A stretch of DNA of 33,605 nt. It comes from a virus. Below, one piece after another: positions 24,938 through 30,867 of the stretch; position 1 is the stretch's first letter, and every line of letters starts with the position of its first letter. The translations under genes were made by a program, and so were the position numbers. The stretch covers positions 1-33,605 of IMG/VR virus record IMGVR_UViG_3300035698_003607. One strand, written 5' to 3'. The notes under the pieces were generated by a model, which searched no databases, had not been told where the DNA came from, and saw only the letters and a list, made by a program, of their open reading frames with translations.

Positions 24938-25196
24938 CTTGTACCTCTCCTTTGTTAAAATCCTTTATCCTTGCCTTTGCAAGTTTGACTAATTTTGTAT
25001 ATTCATCCATCTTTGCCAAGGTTTGCCCTGCTTTTGTGAAATTCTCCTCCCTTAAACATTTGTTGACAATCTTTTGTAAATCTTTTTGGCGTTCCTTAAT
25101 CAAATCTATAAACACAAACCACCCATTAGTGGTTATTATTTCATCCCATGCTGACTTCTCTAAGATTCTGCTCTCTGCTTTCGATAAGTCTTCCAT
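24930..25196 (-). CDS. 88-aa helical hypothetical protein
   Basis: A soluble all-helical protein (AWDEIITTNGWFVFIDLIKE, then KDLQKIVNKCLREENFTKAG), charged, with one Cys. The first ATG overlaps the portal stop (TAATG). Short helical proteins directly after portal genes are common in phages, but no family is recognised. It may be a portal-associated or head assembly factor. Confidence 0.6.
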   Translation of the reverse strand: MEDLSKAESRILEKSAWDEIITTNGWFVFIDLIKERQKDLQKIVNKCLREENFTKAGQTLAKMDEYTKLVKLAKARIKDFNKGEVQDD

Positions 25197-27442
25197 TATT
25201 GATTACCCCCGTCTGGCATTAGTTGAGCGTTCGGTTGTGCCTCTTGAGCCCCCATAAGACCTGCCTGTGGCGGTTGTCCTCCACCTTGCGTTGGTTCTAT
25301 TGGTACACCACTTGTCAATGTCTGTGTGGCCATTTGCTCGGCTATCTGCTTTTCTTGTGATTGTTTCATAAATTCCATCATATACATCTGCGTCAAGAAC
25401 CTGTGGTTATCCCAATTTGGTAGATACTCTTCGTCTATCTCATGGCGTGATTCCTGTTCTTGTCTTTCGTGGCCTTGTGCATGTTGGATAATCATTGGTG
25501 TGCCACGTTCAGGTGGGTCTATTTGCTCACCCTGTTTGATTCTAATTAACTCGTTGTCTATTTCGTCACTTCTACCATCTGCATTAGGTGGCTCTGGTGG
25601 TAAATATTGTTCAGGGTTATCCATACCTATTGCTTGATATAAATCTCTAAGCTGTTTCCAACTACCTTTAGGGTTGAGTTCTGGACTCATCCACATAGAA
25701 GCCTGTGTATTTTGGAAAGCCCATATTTTAATCTCTTTATCCAACGTCTTTGAACCTGCTGTGACGTTTGGTGTCTGTGCTAGGTCATAGTTACCGCGTA
25801 TAGAATTGATAGAAAAGTTCTTTATTAGCTCACTTCCGTCTTTTCCAAGCACTCTTTTGCCTAAATCTGGTGGTGCCCAATCTTGGTACATCCTTATTCT
25901 ACGGTTTAATGCTCCCGATATACAACCCTGAGCCCGCTTAACCCATAAACTAAACCTGTTCTCGGACTTTTCTGATACGATATTATCTCTTGTTGCGGTT
26001 GCGCCCTTGCTACTTGATGTTAAAAAGTAAGCTGCCGCACCAGTTTTCTTCTCCAATATCTCAAATAAGAGGTTTACCATCTGGTAACTCCACGCATTTG
26101 AGCGTTGATTATTAGGGAAATATACGTTCTGTGATGGGTTTTCGGAAGGGTACAACCTGCCAGGTCTAAGCCTTTGCTCGCCTTTTAGGTACTCGTCATC
26201 TGGATTGTAGAACCCATAAGGACAGTTCTCTACTGTCTGATAATCTACTGTTTGGTCAAATACATTGTTGATTGCGTTGGTTTCAGGTGCAACTAATTGA
26301 GCAAGTCCTTTACCTTTCAACTGACCTGGTATGCGGATAAATCCTTGGTCGTCAAATGGTCGCTCTCCTGATCTTGTAACCTTTCTCAATGGTTTACCCG
26401 CTAGAAAAGTTTCGCTTTCAGGGTCAATAGTTAGCCTGTATTCTTCTGTTATCTTCTTTTTGGTTTTTTTCTTACCGTCTGTAATATCAATAGTTCTAGT
26501 CAATGGCCCGTACCATTCGTATAAGTCTACAGGTTGTAACCTTACATCTAAATCACTTATGTCAACTTCAGTAACACCTAAGGCATCTTCTCGTTCTGCC
26601 TGTTGTCCTTCGCCCTTCTTTGCTCTTGGTTTAACTCTACCATTTAATGCTTTCTTGTATGTATCATCTATGTTGGTGAATATTCCTCGTTCGCCTTTAT
26701 CAATTATTGTTCCACCTAGCAAATGTATTCTGTGAACAAACTGTGGAACGCTTTGTAAATCTTTACCAAATTTAGGTGCAATTATATCTTCAAGGTTCGC
26801 AATGTTCTCTGTGATAGGTTTTTCAAAACGTACCTCTTCGGTCTTTATCTCGTACCCTTTAAAGTCGCCGAACTTCTTACCAATGGACTCTATGCCATCA
26901 CTTAACGCACCATACTTGGGAACTCTTTTGTCTACCCATTGATACCATACTTTCCAATATGTTTTCAGTACAGCATAACCACCAACAATATAATTGTGGA
27001 GAAAATCGTCTATCTCGTTTTGTATTTCTCTTTCGTGTGAGGTTACATCCCACTTAGCAAACTTCTCTAAATTCTCTTTGTTTTTAACGTCATTCTCTTC
27101 TGTTGGTACAAAATAAATACTGTTAGGATTTAGACATGTTGACAATAATGTTGCTTGGTAAGTATCACAAACGGCCCCACACATGCCAAGGTTACGGTCG
27201 GATTGACCCTTGTCTTTGTCGAGGTTTTCGATTTCTGAAGGTGGTGCGCCATTATATAACTTGACATTCATTGCCTGCTGTTTTAGCCAATCAGCATTCT
27301 CGTTTTTGTTGTTCTCTGCACAAAGCAAAACCATATTAACGATTTCTTTTTGCTCTTCTGTACTGAAGTTATCTGTTTCTAATTCTAAATCTAAACGTTG
27401 GGAATCTTTGTCTTTGTCGCTGACGGGATTTAATTTGCTCAA
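25196..27442 (-). CDS. Portal protein
   Basis: About 748 residues, starting at TTG 27442, which has GGAGG five bases upstream. The frame stays open 15 codons further up to an ATG inside the terminator, which is not a credible start. The chain has the features of a P22-size portal: a helical start, LLSTCLNPNSIYFVPTEEND with a helical FLHNYIVGGYAVLKTYWKVW region, a beta-rich wing (EEYRLTIDPESETFLAGKPL), then IRIPGQLKGKGLAQLV, NAINNVFDQTVDYQ and SSKGATATRDNIV, and a Gln-rich C-terminal tail (QEKQIAEQMATQTLT). It forms the DNA channel ring of the head. Position between terminase and scaffold agrees. Confidence 0.75.
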   Translation of the reverse strand: MSKLNPVSDKDKDSQRLDLELETDNFSTEEQKEIVNMVLLCAENNKNENADWLKQQAMNVKLYNGAPPSEIENLDKDKGQSDRNLGMCGAVCDTYQATLLSTCLNPNSIYFVPTEENDVKNKENLEKFAKWDVTSHEREIQNEIDDFLHNYIVGGYAVLKTYWKVWYQWVDKRVPKYGALSDGIESIGKKFGDFKGYEIKTEEVRFEKPITENIANLEDIIAPKFGKDLQSVPQFVHRIHLLGGTIIDKGERGIFTNIDDTYKKALNGRVKPRAKKGEGQQAEREDALGVTEVDISDLDVRLQPVDLYEWYGPLTRTIDITDGKKKTKKKITEEYRLTIDPESETFLAGKPLRKVTRSGERPFDDQGFIRIPGQLKGKGLAQLVAPETNAINNVFDQTVDYQTVENCPYGFYNPDDEYLKGEQRLRPGRLYPSENPSQNVYFPNNQRSNAWSYQMVNLLFEILEKKTGAAAYFLTSSSKGATATRDNIVSEKSENRFSLWVKRAQGCISGALNRRIRMYQDWAPPDLGKRVLGKDGSELIKNFSINSIRGNYDLAQTPNVTAGSKTLDKEIKIWAFQNTQASMWMSPELNPKGSWKQLRDLYQAIGMDNPEQYLPPEPPNADGRSDEIDNELIRIKQGEQIDPPERGTPMIIQHAQGHERQEQESRHEIDEEYLPNWDNHRFLTQMYMMEFMKQSQEKQIAEQMATQTLTSGVPIEPTQGGGQPPQAGLMGAQEAQPNAQLMPDGGNQ

Positions 27443-27457
27443 GCTAACCTCCACAAT

Positions 27458-27498
27458 AAAAAAAGCGATAACCTGATGTTTAGTCAAGTTACCGCTTT
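27458..27498 (-). terminator. Rho-independent terminator upstream of the portal gene
   Basis: On the minus strand AAAGCGGTAAC (27498-27488) pairs with GTTATCGCTTT (27472-27462), giving an 11-bp stem with one G-T wobble, a 15-base loop and a T7 tract (27464-27458) that begins in the stem. It lies between the 49-aa gene and the portal ribosome-binding site, with no room for another promoter, so it is likely to act as an attenuator or to end a short transcript. Confidence 0.8.
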
Positions 27499-27525
27499 AC
27501 ATATGTAGTGGTCGGTCACTTTAGT

Positions 27526-27675
27526 TTATAATTTTTCTGTTGCTGTAACCTTTATCTTTTCAGTAATGCTGTGCTCATATACATTCAGTTCTATCTTACC
27601 GAACCTATGTTGCTCTATTTTACTTCTTAGTTTAATTATAATCTTTTTTTCTTTTTCTGTCAAGTGTAAACACAC
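27526..27675 (-). CDS. 49-aa DUF2292-like small protein (overlaps a promoter)
   Basis: Read directly from the sequence. GTG 27675 follows the upstream TAA by two bases, with AAAAAAAGG as ribosome-binding site. The product starts CLHLTEKEKKIIIKLRSKIE after the initiator and continues FGKIELNVYEHSITEKIKVT. A helix LTEKEKK-I followed by an FGKI-hydrophobic hairpin and a basic end resembles the small DUF2292-type proteins, a family of unknown function. The gene contains a perfect promoter sequence at 27635-27663, so part of its coding may be chance; the protein call is therefore moderate. Confidence 0.5.
   Translation of the reverse strand: MCLHLTEKEKKIIIKLRSKIEQHRFGKIELNVYEHSITEKIKVTATEKL
27635..27663 (-). 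promoter_or_regulatory. Perfect consensus sigma70-type promoter
   Basis: On the minus strand TTGACA (27663-27658) and TATAAT (27640-27635) are both exact and are 17 bases apart, the ideal spacing, with an A-rich spacer. A small inverted repeat, GTGT-TT-ACAC, lies just upstream and could be an operator. Transcription would start near 27628 and run towards the terminator at 27458-27498 and then the portal gene. No other site in the window was seen to match as well. Confidence 0.8.
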
Positions 27676-27677
27676 AT

Positions 27678-28010
27678 TTAAAACCTTTTTTTACCGAATT
27701 TACCTTTTGCCTTTCCCCCATTATCCCCTACATGTGGCGTAAACTTCTTATTGTTGTTTGCTACATACCTTCTTGCTATCTCATTGGTGATGAAGAAATC
27801 AAGGTCTGTCTTAGCAATACATATGTCTAAATGTGGTGCGTTTTGATTAACCATTGTTATTATCTTTTTGGTTTTCGGGTCTAGCACGCTACACGCTACA
27901 ATGAATGATCTGTCTATAAACCTGTCTGGTTCCGCTAAAAACGCTTCTTTCTTAGCTTCAGCAATCTCTTCTGGTGTTGGTTCTGGTATCTTTTCGTCAT
28001 TGTTACTCAT
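27678..28010 (-). CDS. Hypothetical soluble protein
   Basis: A 110-aa protein with an acidic N-terminus (PEPTPEEIAEAKKEAFLAEP), a mixed alpha/beta centre (IVACSVLDPKTKKIITMVN, DICIAKTDLDFFITNEIARR) and a basic glycine-lysine tail (GGKAKGKFGKKRF). It overlaps the upstream secreted gene by ATGA. The basic tail could contact nucleic acid. No family is recognised. Confidence 0.6.
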   Translation of the reverse strand: MSNNDEKIPEPTPEEIAEAKKEAFLAEPDRFIDRSFIVACSVLDPKTKKIITMVNQNAPHLDICIAKTDLDFFITNEIARRYVANNNKKFTPHVGDNGGKAKGKFGKKRF

Positions 28011-28417
28011 TTTTCCCCCTTAAAGTCTTTAACCGTGCAACGGTAAGGATTTGAACAATTATAATTCTTTGTTAAATACCACATTTCCTCTGAACCGTCA
28101 AATATTAACGTTGTCGAACCCTTAACCGTACCTAGTATTAATTCAGGACATTCATAAACATACATAATGTCTATTATTTCTGCCCCTACGTCTATCCAAT
28201 CTAATTCTTTTTCTTCTCTTTCGCCTACTCCTTTCCAATATATTCTACTGCCTTCGCTTCTAAATTCATATGATGAAAAAGAAGGTGCTTGGATATGTTC
28301 ACCTATTATTATACCCAAATCCTCTGTTTCTATTGATTCCAGAAAATTATCTGACCGTGCCGCAAAAGCCGTGCTTGTTAAAGCGACTACCGCTAACATA
28401 AGAATTATGGTCTTCAT
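28007..28417 (-). CDS. Secreted hypothetical protein downstream of groES
   Basis: A 136-aa protein with the signal peptide MKTIILMLAVVALTSTAFAA, cleavage near residue 19-20. The mature chain looks like a small beta domain (GSRIYWKGVGEREEKELDWI, LILGTVKGSTTLIFDGSEEM) with three cysteines (ECPE, NCSNPYRC) that could be disulfide-bonded in the periplasm. It overlaps groES by ATGA and is thus the last gene joined to the chaperonin set. No family is recognised. Confidence 0.6.
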   Translation of the reverse strand: MKTIILMLAVVALTSTAFAARSDNFLESIETEDLGIIIGEHIQAPSFSSYEFRSEGSRIYWKGVGEREEKELDWIDVGAEIIDIMYVYECPELILGTVKGSTTLIFDGSEEMWYLTKNYNCSNPYRCTVKDFKGEK

Positions 28418-28746
28418 TTCTCCACCACCGCCAATACATCACGTTCATCAAGAATCTTGTAGTCTTTACAGTCCTCTACAAAATCATTACCGTGATATTT
28501 TACGAAATAGACGGTGTCACCTACCTTAAAGGGTATGGCGAAATAAGCGTCAATGCCACCTTCTTTCTCATCTTCGCTGATATTCTCATCCCTTCGCCCT
28601 GTACCAACCGCTACAACTACGCCCTTGGTCATCTTCTTGCCTTCGTCACCTTCGGAACCTGGCACGATAAACCCACCGTCACGCACTTCGTCCTTCGCAT
28701 CAATCCTTTCTACAATAACCCTGTCTCCTAATGGCTTAATGTTCAT
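28414..28746 (-). CDS. groES: GroES / Cpn10 co-chaperonin
   Basis: A 110-aa protein that starts MNIKPLGDRVIVERIDAKDE, the canonical Cpn10 opening, followed by a mobile loop DGGFIVPGSEGDEGKK whose F-I-V hydrophobic tripeptide should dock on the GroEL apical domain. Then come KGVVVAVGTGRRDENISEDE, a roof region about 12 residues longer than that of E. coli GroES, the VGDTVYFVKYHG strand and the typical end YKILDERDVLAVVEK. Its ATG overlaps the groEL stop (ATGA), the reverse of the usual bacterial order groES-groEL. It forms the seven-fold lid of the folding chamber. Confidence 0.9.
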   Translation of the reverse strand: MNIKPLGDRVIVERIDAKDEVRDGGFIVPGSEGDEGKKMTKGVVVAVGTGRRDENISEDEKEGGIDAYFAIPFKVGDTVYFVKYHGNDFVEDCKDYKILDERDVLAVVEK

Positions 28747-30404
28747 TCTTTGTCTTCCTCCTCTTCCTCACAAATTACACATTCTGTTGTCAACAACAAC
28801 CCTGCTATACTTGAAGCGTTCTGTAATGTCAAACGAACTACCTTGGTCGGGTCGATAACACCATCTTCATACATATCAACATATTTACCTGTTGATGCGT
28901 TGAAACCATTGTTGTTAGCTAGATTCTTCGCTTCATAAATTCCATCTGTGCCAATCCCTATGTTACCGCATGAAGATTTTAATAGCTCTTTAATTACCAT
29001 GCTACCTTCTTCGCCCGCATTCGAACATATTTGACGAATAGGAGCTTCGCAGGCTTTAGATATTATTTGCATACCTATCTTTTCGTCTTCGTCAATCATA
29101 TCGTCAAAAACAAACTTCCCTATATCTAACATTTTCTTTGCCCTCAACAAAGCACAACCACCACCGGGTACGATGCCCTCTTCAACTGCAGCTCTTGTTG
29201 CACAAACCGCATCATCAATTCTCATTTTCTTTTCTTCCGCTTCAACCTCAGTGCTTGCACCAACATAAATAACCGCTATCCCACCAACCATTCTAGCTAG
29301 TCTAGCCTTTAGGAATAGCTTATCTATACCCTCATCCTCAGATGTTAGCTGTTCTTTAATCTGGTCAATCCGTGCTTGGATGGCTACCTTATCGCCCCCA
29401 CCCTGCATAACAGTACAGTCCTTTTTGGTGACTCGCACCTTGTTAGCTGTTCCCAACATTGCAAGAGTGGTATCTTTTAGCTTCATTCCTTTGTCACGGC
29501 TTATGACTGTCGCACCTGTTAGAATCGCTAAATCCTCTAAGTTCTGTTTGCCGTGATCCCCAAACCCATACATCTTTACAGCACAACATCGCAATACACC
29601 TTTAACATGGTTGAAAACTAAAGTGTTTAATACCTCAGGTTCAGCCTTTTCAGATATAACTAACACTGGTCTACTCTGGTCAGACAACTGTTCAAATAAT
29701 GGAATGATTTCTTTAAGGTTGTTAAGCCTCGAATCATACAATAAAATATATGGGTCTTCCAGTACGGCTTCCATCTTGTGAGGATTAGTAACCATGTAAG
29801 GACTTTCCCATCCATTCTTGAACTGAGTACCGTCAATTAAATCAAGAGTTGTTTCCAAACCTTTAGCATTTTCTACAGTAACAACTCCATCTTTGCCTAC
29901 TTTGTCTATCGCATCAGCAATAAGATCACCAATCTCTTTATCACTGTTTGCCGAGATTGTAGCGATATTCAGGATGTCTTGCTTATCCTCTACCTGTTTG
30001 CTCATGGTTGTCAACTCTTCCACTATAAGCGTCACTGCCTTATCCATTCCACGCTTTAGACTCATTGGGTTACAACCTGCTATAACGTGGCGCATACCCT
30101 CTCTAAAGATGTTTAAAGCTAAGACTACCGCAGTAGTCGTGCCGTCACCAGCTTCTTCTGCAGTCTTCTCCGATACTTCACGCACTAACTGAGCCCCAAC
30201 GTTCTCAAACTTGTCCTTCAACACTATATGCTTGGCTACCGTAACGCCGTCTTTAGTTACAATAGGCAATCCTCTTGCTGAATCTATTGTGACATTGCGA
30301 CCTTTAGGGCCAAGCGTTGTCATTACAGCCTTAGCCAGTGTCTCAACACCAACCAACATTCTCTTTCTTGCTTCTTCATCAAATGCTAATTCTTTCGGTT
30401 TCAC
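28743..30404 (-). CDS. groL: Phage-encoded GroEL / Cpn60 chaperonin
   Basis: A full-length 553-aa chaperonin that aligns without gaps to the bacterial protein at the start (LGPKGRNVTIDSARGLPIVT, KDGVTVAKH with Asp52, GDGTTTAVV with Asp87). It keeps RIDDAVCATRAAVEEG with the hydrolysis-critical Asp, the glycine loop GIVPGGGCALL and the DPTKVVRLTLQ segment. The apical groove is present with changes (GWESPYM for E. coli GYLSPYF; IIPLF for MLPVL). The C-terminus is acidic (CEEEEEDKE) and lacks the usual GGM repeats. GTG 30404 follows directly after the TAA of the membrane peptide, with AAGGGGGG as ribosome-binding site. All ATP-site motifs look intact, so it should be an active ATP-driven folding machine. 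Confidence 0.95.
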   Translation of the reverse strand: MKPKELAFDEEARKRMLVGVETLAKAVMTTLGPKGRNVTIDSARGLPIVTKDGVTVAKHIVLKDKFENVGAQLVREVSEKTAEEAGDGTTTAVVLALNIFREGMRHVIAGCNPMSLKRGMDKAVTLIVEELTTMSKQVEDKQDILNIATISANSDKEIGDLIADAIDKVGKDGVVTVENAKGLETTLDLIDGTQFKNGWESPYMVTNPHKMEAVLEDPYILLYDSRLNNLKEIIPLFEQLSDQSRPVLVISEKAEPEVLNTLVFNHVKGVLRCCAVKMYGFGDHGKQNLEDLAILTGATVISRDKGMKLKDTTLAMLGTANKVRVTKKDCTVMQGGGDKVAIQARIDQIKEQLTSEDEGIDKLFLKARLARMVGGIAVIYVGASTEVEAEEKKMRIDDAVCATRAAVEEGIVPGGGCALLRAKKMLDIGKFVFDDMIDEDEKIGMQIISKACEAPIRQICSNAGEEGSMVIKELLKSSCGNIGIGTDGIYEAKNLANNNGFNASTGKYVDMYEDGVIDPTKVVRLTLQNASSIAGLLLTTECVICEEEEEDKE

Positions 30405-30581
30405 TTATCCCCCCTTATGTTTTATAAAATAAATTAAATAGCCACACACAAAAACGAAGGTTATAGTTGCTATAGATAAGCTGATTATATTCCCTATGTT
30501 TTCATAGTCTGCATGCTTATACATTCCATATAGACCTTGTATCATTATTGAGACTCCTATGAATTGTATTACTTTAAACAT
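30405..30581 (-). CDS. 58-aa two-helix membrane protein between the cpn10-like gene and groEL
   Basis: Read directly from the sequence. ATG 30581 has GAGGAG four bases upstream. The product begins MFKVIQFIGVSIMIQGLYGM, a first membrane helix, then a short polar loop (YKHADYENIGN), a second helix (about 32-52, IISLSIATITFVFVCGYLIY) and a basic end (FIKHKGG). The stop TAA touches the GTG of groEL. Two short helices with basic tail is a common small-holin layout; an inner-membrane factor linked to the chaperonin is an alternative. No family is recognised. Confidence 0.65.
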   Translation of the reverse strand: MFKVIQFIGVSIMIQGLYGMYKHADYENIGNIISLSIATITFVFVCGYLIYFIKHKGG

Positions 30582-30582
30582 C

Positions 30583-30867
30583 TTACTCCTCGTATTTACC
30601 CATCACCCAACGTTCTTTTAATACTAAATACTCGTCATCACCAATCACTATCGGCTTGCCTTCGTGTCTTTGGAATATAACCTTATCTCCTTTTTTTAGT
30701 TCATACGAATAATCGGGGCCTATGTCTACTACCTCACCATAGTAATCTGAATGGTACTTGTGGATAGACACCCCTGAGTTGGGAATCAAAAACTTCCCAC
30801 CGTCCACATTGTGTGAATAGATTATCTTGACCAAGACCATGTCTGCAACCACTTTTGGAAGATTCAT
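30583..30867 (-). CDS. Second, divergent Cpn10-like protein
   Basis: A 94-aa protein with the Cpn10 plan: N-terminal strand (PKVVADMVLVKIIYS), a mobile-loop-like segment DGGKFLIPNSGVSIHKYHSD with the hydrophobic F-L-I preceding P, then YYGEVVDIGPDYSYELKKGD (matching G-x-V-hydrophobic-x-hydrophobic-G), KVIFQRHEGKPI and EYLVLKERWVMGKYEE. It is clearly diverged from the canonical GroES at 28414, so it is not a recent duplicate. ATGA overlap with the upstream gene. It may form alternative or mixed lids on the phage GroEL. Confidence 0.75.
   Translation of the reverse strand: MNLPKVVADMVLVKIIYSHNVDGGKFLIPNSGVSIHKYHSDYYGEVVDIGPDYSYELKKGDKVIFQRHEGKPIVIGDDEYLVLKERWVMGKYEE

Follow-up and report, generated by a model that had tools for sequence, protein, structure and literature searches.

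What might a perfect sigma-70-type promoter, followed within 140 nt by a strong intrinsic terminator, do directly in front of a phage portal gene? Outside a few model phages, little is known of how late genes are controlled. The window analysed here, an IMG/VR virus record of 33,605 bases taken at its full length (39% GC), carries a minus-strand block of virion genes (TerL, GroES-like, GroEL, GroES-like, three small frames, SU10-type portal, capsid, and more). The portal gene (25196..27442, minus strand; Pfam PF23899, E = 2e-12) starts with TTG at 27442 behind the Shine-Dalgarno (SD) sequence GGAGG (27452-27448), and upstream of it lies a conserved 110-aa gene (27678..28010, minus strand) whose homologues usually precede the portal. 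Between the two genes stands the promoter TTGACA-N17-TATAAT (12/12 matches; 27635..27663, minus strand; -35 box at 27663-27658, spacer 17, -10 box at 27640-27635), which begins 15 nt past the stop of the 110-aa gene and has a predicted transcription start at ~27628. It is followed by a terminator stem-loop of 15 bp with a 7-nt loop (27462..27498, minus strand; -17.9 kcal/mol) and a TTTTTTTATT tail reaching to 27455, the longest-stemmed terminator-like site among the parts scanned. A sequence-only reading had described this pair as a perfect promoter and a strong terminator before the portal gene. Its coordinates proved right, with the terminator 137 nt after the promoter and the portal ribosome-binding site (RBS) 10 nt further, and its estimate of a ~170-nt transcript agrees with the predicted start and an end in the U-tract (27455..27628, minus strand, as judged from promoter and terminator). 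It had also seen no promoter space between the terminator and the portal RBS, and indeed none fits before the SD. The plain end of one operon followed by a new start was ruled out, since the promoter stands upstream of the terminator.

Close DNA relatives of the window were found neither among GenBank phages nor in IMG/VR. Relatives were collected via portal and TerL, which gave 36 non-redundant sequences comprising 334 kb including the window. Counting TTGACA-N17-TATAAT sites in these 334 kb revealed exactly four, compared with 0.106 expected from dinucleotide content, and all four lie within ~300 nt upstream of a portal gene on the same strand, where 0.0016 were expected. The carriers are the window and the contigs L036, L040, and L058, in which position and spacing are the same; conservation of the promoter in relatives, named beforehand as the point on which the proposal could fail, was therefore found in three of them. 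No perfect N17 promoter turned up in a control set of contigs totalling 683 kb, in nearly all of which TerL is more distant. Within the fetched stretch of each of L036, L040, and L058, the highest-scoring promoter and the terminator with the longest stem coincide before the portal, and in all four carriers a strong terminator lies right against the portal start. The window alone would be moderately persuasive, because a second 12/12 promoter-like match with a spacer of 18 (4114-4085, minus strand) sits inside a 1512-aa coding sequence, probably by chance. Because all four N17 sites precede portals, the promoter itself is not a chance match. A fortuitous consensus in AT-rich DNA next to an ordinary operon terminator, for which that second match within a coding sequence might speak, is strongly disfavoured by a position conserved in four contigs against an expectation of 0.0016, and we regard it as scarcely credible. 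An inverted repeat GTGT-TT-ACAC abutting the -35 box (27664..27673, minus strand) had been put forward as an operator; the repeat is present, but its 4-bp arms and its absence from the promoters of L036, L040, and L058 leave the operator role unsupported, and it is probably a chance occurrence. Portal relatives were not found in bacterial genomes, and the TerL relatives found there are only ~30% identical and come mostly from Clostridia assemblies.

The promoter overlaps a 49-codon open frame (27526..27675, minus strand), which had been taken as a case of coding and regulation sharing the same DNA. The frame exists, with a GTG start, an SD-like AAGG upstream, and the terminator 27 nt past its stop, as might be expected of a real small gene that the terminator ends, that is, of a protein-coding moron (the definition of a moron includes a promoter and terminator of its own; PMC2629481). 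However, the frame contains the promoter itself and offers no in-frame start past the predicted transcription start. Searches against Pfam, PHROGs, NCBIfam, and phage proteins gave no match, the codon score is uninformative, being equalled by 38% of spurious frames, and L036, L040, and L058 have no counterpart. The claim of an overlap thus did not hold up: the frame is probably not a gene expressed from this promoter, and a protein-coding moron appears very improbable. A resemblance of the frame to a known small protein family (DUF2292-like), noted by eye, received no HMM support.

From the promoter, the terminator, their order, their positional conservation, and the predicted structure, we infer transcription, termination, and regulated read-through, and likewise what any regulator might be. 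Host RNA polymerase would start at the constitutive consensus promoter and produce a short, apparently untranslated RNA, and most transcripts would end at the terminator. Read-through would be the sole source of portal mRNA: there is no room for a promoter between terminator and portal, and transcripts from the promoter, and any from upstream, reach the terminator first. In the read-through RNA, the terminator hairpin would gain an outer helix extending into the portal RBS in the window and up to it in the relatives, a second possible brake, this one on translation. Either a phage factor or the leader RNA itself would presumably promote read-through. Q-type antiterminators were found neither among the window proteins scanned nor, with PF03589 as the one family searched, in six partial relatives represented by incomplete contigs. 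Judged from its layout, the promoter–terminator pair probably does act on the head genes as an on/off switch or a dimmer; that a promoter-leader-terminator switch gates the portal and the following head genes by read-through is a proposal whose chances of being right and wrong we hold to be about evenly balanced.

The leader of the window folds with z = -4.6, and with z = -1.9 when the terminator is left out. For L036, L040, and L058, whose portals are ~80% identical among themselves (the window portal is 40-41% identical to those of L036 and L040), whole-leader folds gave z values from -5 to -6.6. Their leaders are ~100 nt long, hold no plausible or translatable frame, and contain between promoter and terminator a hairpin with an invariant 14-nt apex, UUUCUCGACGGAGA, which would be the obvious candidate site for raising read-through in these three phages. 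The base of its stem shows three pairs with two-sided, compensating changes, and 90% of cells are paired compared with 25-67% for slid versions (three sequences); the covariation control is weak, as an equally good result came from 40 of 500 shuffles. A role of the motif as a repeated operator was rejected, as each contig has a single perfect copy and weaker matches are no commoner than in the control. A wider search of IMG/VR with the hairpin pattern returned, beyond the known three, unrelated chance matches only. Rfam 15 gave no hit at the gathering score in the window or eight relatives, and a relaxed search of 27420-27700 gave no match up to E = 5 and nothing credible. Likewise, a covariance model of the L036/L040/L058 clade found no match in the window at E <= 5. 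The window therefore has the layout, not the sequence, in common with the clade, and arguments from the invariant hairpin do not extend to it. A passive attenuator, whose strong constitutive promoter and leaky terminator would keep portal mRNA at a fixed low level and leave read-through unregulated, would have the same anatomy, and neither an antiterminator nor an alternative antiterminator hairpin was identified; yet it leaves the invariant apex in three diverged phages unexplained, and we consider it improbable. The terminator apices of the same contigs (L036:4947-4980, L040:4945-4979, L058:3941-3976) are perfect palindromes with differing centres (CCUGUACAGG, CCUGAUCAGG, and CUUGCGCAAG, respectively), which could permit loop-loop pairing between two RNAs.

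In the window, the outer helix is formed by a 5' strand at 27504..27518 (minus strand; registers GACCaCUACA or UGACC..CCAC) and a 3' strand at 27446..27455 (minus strand; UGUGGaGGUU) that contains the portal SD GGAGG. Because the 3' strand lies beyond the U-tract, the helix can form only in read-through portal mRNA, and any selection on that strand therefore acts on read-through transcripts. In the predicted fold of the window's read-through RNA, nearly all bases of the portal SD are paired, its A excepted; predicted occlusion of the SD is strong in the window and L036 and partial in L040 and L058. Comparing the flank pairing with shuffles gave p = 0.026 for the window, 0.022, 0.076, and 0.072 for the other three carriers, and 0.008 for L012, where a strong outer helix surrounds the terminator and no promoter is recognisable. 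The helix was not significant against shuffles in L004, L013, L014, L041, and L049, of which L004, L013, L041, and L049 are of the Com type described below. It reads CCAACAA/UUGUUGG in L036 and L040 and GUACCAA/UUGGUAU or CCAAUA/UAUUGG in L058, so that both strands of L058 differ from those of L036/L040. These predicted folds point to a cis-acting leader. A further helix (P1) between the RNA 5' end and the portal SD, attractive in MFE folds, failed the shuffle tests (p 0.05-0.35). The sequence-only reading had offered a small RNA or a read-through leader as alternatives; a terminated short transcript and a leader are both supported, and the predicted structures tilt the balance towards a leader that would give a small RNA as well. 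Taken further, the clade might represent an undescribed class of phage regulatory RNA: a promoter-proximal leader at the portal, in which the invariant UUUCUCGACGGAGA hairpin precedes a terminator enclosed by an outer helix, would work as an RNA-based antitermination/translation switch for virion assembly, a tentative idea that we judge unlikely.

The spot before the portal also looks like a moron insertion site, judging from its variable content among relatives. Promoter and terminator are both missing before the portal at about 25 of 33 related loci, and in most relatives the portal comes directly after the preceding gene; the phage family therefore does not need the cassette. In relatives without it, homologues of the 110-aa gene stand immediately before the portal, adjacent and with no insert in L007, L010, L017, L019, L021, and L023. 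A terminator is found at the same place in L004, L012, L013, and L014 as well as in L036, L040, and L058. A Com-like zinc-ribbon gene with a terminator occupies the spot in L004, L013, L041, and L049 (Com matches below the Pfam cut-off), and another zinc-ribbon frame with a terminator in L014. Comparison of L004 (3038-3360) with the near-identical L007 (at 7113) showed a precise insert of Com-like gene plus terminator between direct repeats ATGAAAGA.

Could the cassette then be an RNA moron, that is, an inserted small-RNA gene acting in trans on host or phage targets while late transcription ignores its terminator? Like phage morons, it is inserted between genes that are adjacent in close relatives, has its own promoter and terminator in keeping with the classical definition (PMC2629481), and shares its spot with unrelated inserts, the Com-like gene plus terminator and the zinc-ribbon frame of L014; in addition, the RNAs of L036, L040, and L058 lack a translatable frame. 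Unlike phage morons, it has no evident gene product and its predicted structure extends into the portal mRNA. The outer helix takes in sequence past the terminated RNA, with the two-sided changes between L058 and L036/L040, and the cassette abuts the portal in 4/4 carriers, even in L058, where an extra gene separates the cassette from the 110-aa homologue. The outer helix and this persistence at the portal in L058 lead us to prefer a cis-acting leader over a trans-acting RNA moron, which is possible, though on balance somewhat unlikely.

The late switch of phage lambda, pR'-tR', includes the 6S RNA. As read from the sequence, the putative leader switch before the portal has the same order of sigma-70 promoter, short RNA, and intrinsic terminator before late genes, and would resemble pR'-6S RNA-tR' in its strong host promoter, its short untranslated RNA, and late genes reached via read-through only. 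It differs in that pR'-tR' precedes lysis genes, whereas the cassette lies directly before the portal, and in that no Q protein was found here. To our knowledge, neither the outer helix nor the invariant hairpin of the clade is known from lambda pR'. Lambda Q needs a DNA element and a sigma-dependent pause near the promoter, where it loads onto RNA polymerase (PMC7171158). Gifsy-1 IsrK has a single promoter that gives rise both to a small RNA ending at a terminator and to a read-through mRNA that is shut to translation (PMC4825925). The likeness would lie in a phage locus with a terminated RNA and a read-through mRNA whose start is occluded, all of this by prediction here; however, IsrK controls an anti-repressor and antQ, whereas the cassette precedes a head gene, and there is no sequence or Rfam relation. 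The sequence by itself points to a discrete switch before the portal, the nucleator of head assembly, in little-known uncultured phages with SU10-type portals. With at least two unrelated terminator-ended cassettes at the same spot (promoter plus RNA; Com-like gene plus repeats), ways to gate one virion gene can be compared.

The repeats are tandem copies of TAGARCGYC directly after the Com-like genes (L004:3254-3271, L013:3853-3879, L041:3173-3192); on both strands of L001-L070, in which some contigs are represented twice, 7 of 11 copies follow such genes. In L013, CCTAGAG arises twice from these repeats, a fit to the CC(N)2-3GAG motif bound by Mu Com, and a hairpin at the portal RBS comes right after. 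L004, L013, and L041 resemble the Mu com/mom leader (PMC6483171) in that tandem repeats come after a Com-like gene and a hairpin lies close to the RBS of the next gene. Unlike in Mu, that next gene is not mom but the portal, or a small gene ahead of the portal, and the window lacks this arrangement.

ARAGORN found no tRNA in L034, where inspection by eye had suggested one. Between TerL and portal, the window encodes a phage GroEL flanked by two different GroES-like genes (28414-30867; GroES-like genes at 30583-30867 and 28414-28746), a chaperonin block absent at that place in the relatives seen. TerL is seemingly interrupted by intein-like sequence in or near the Walker A motif in L040 (2009-4534) and L001 (3-2153), and its match is split in L014 (1742-2729).
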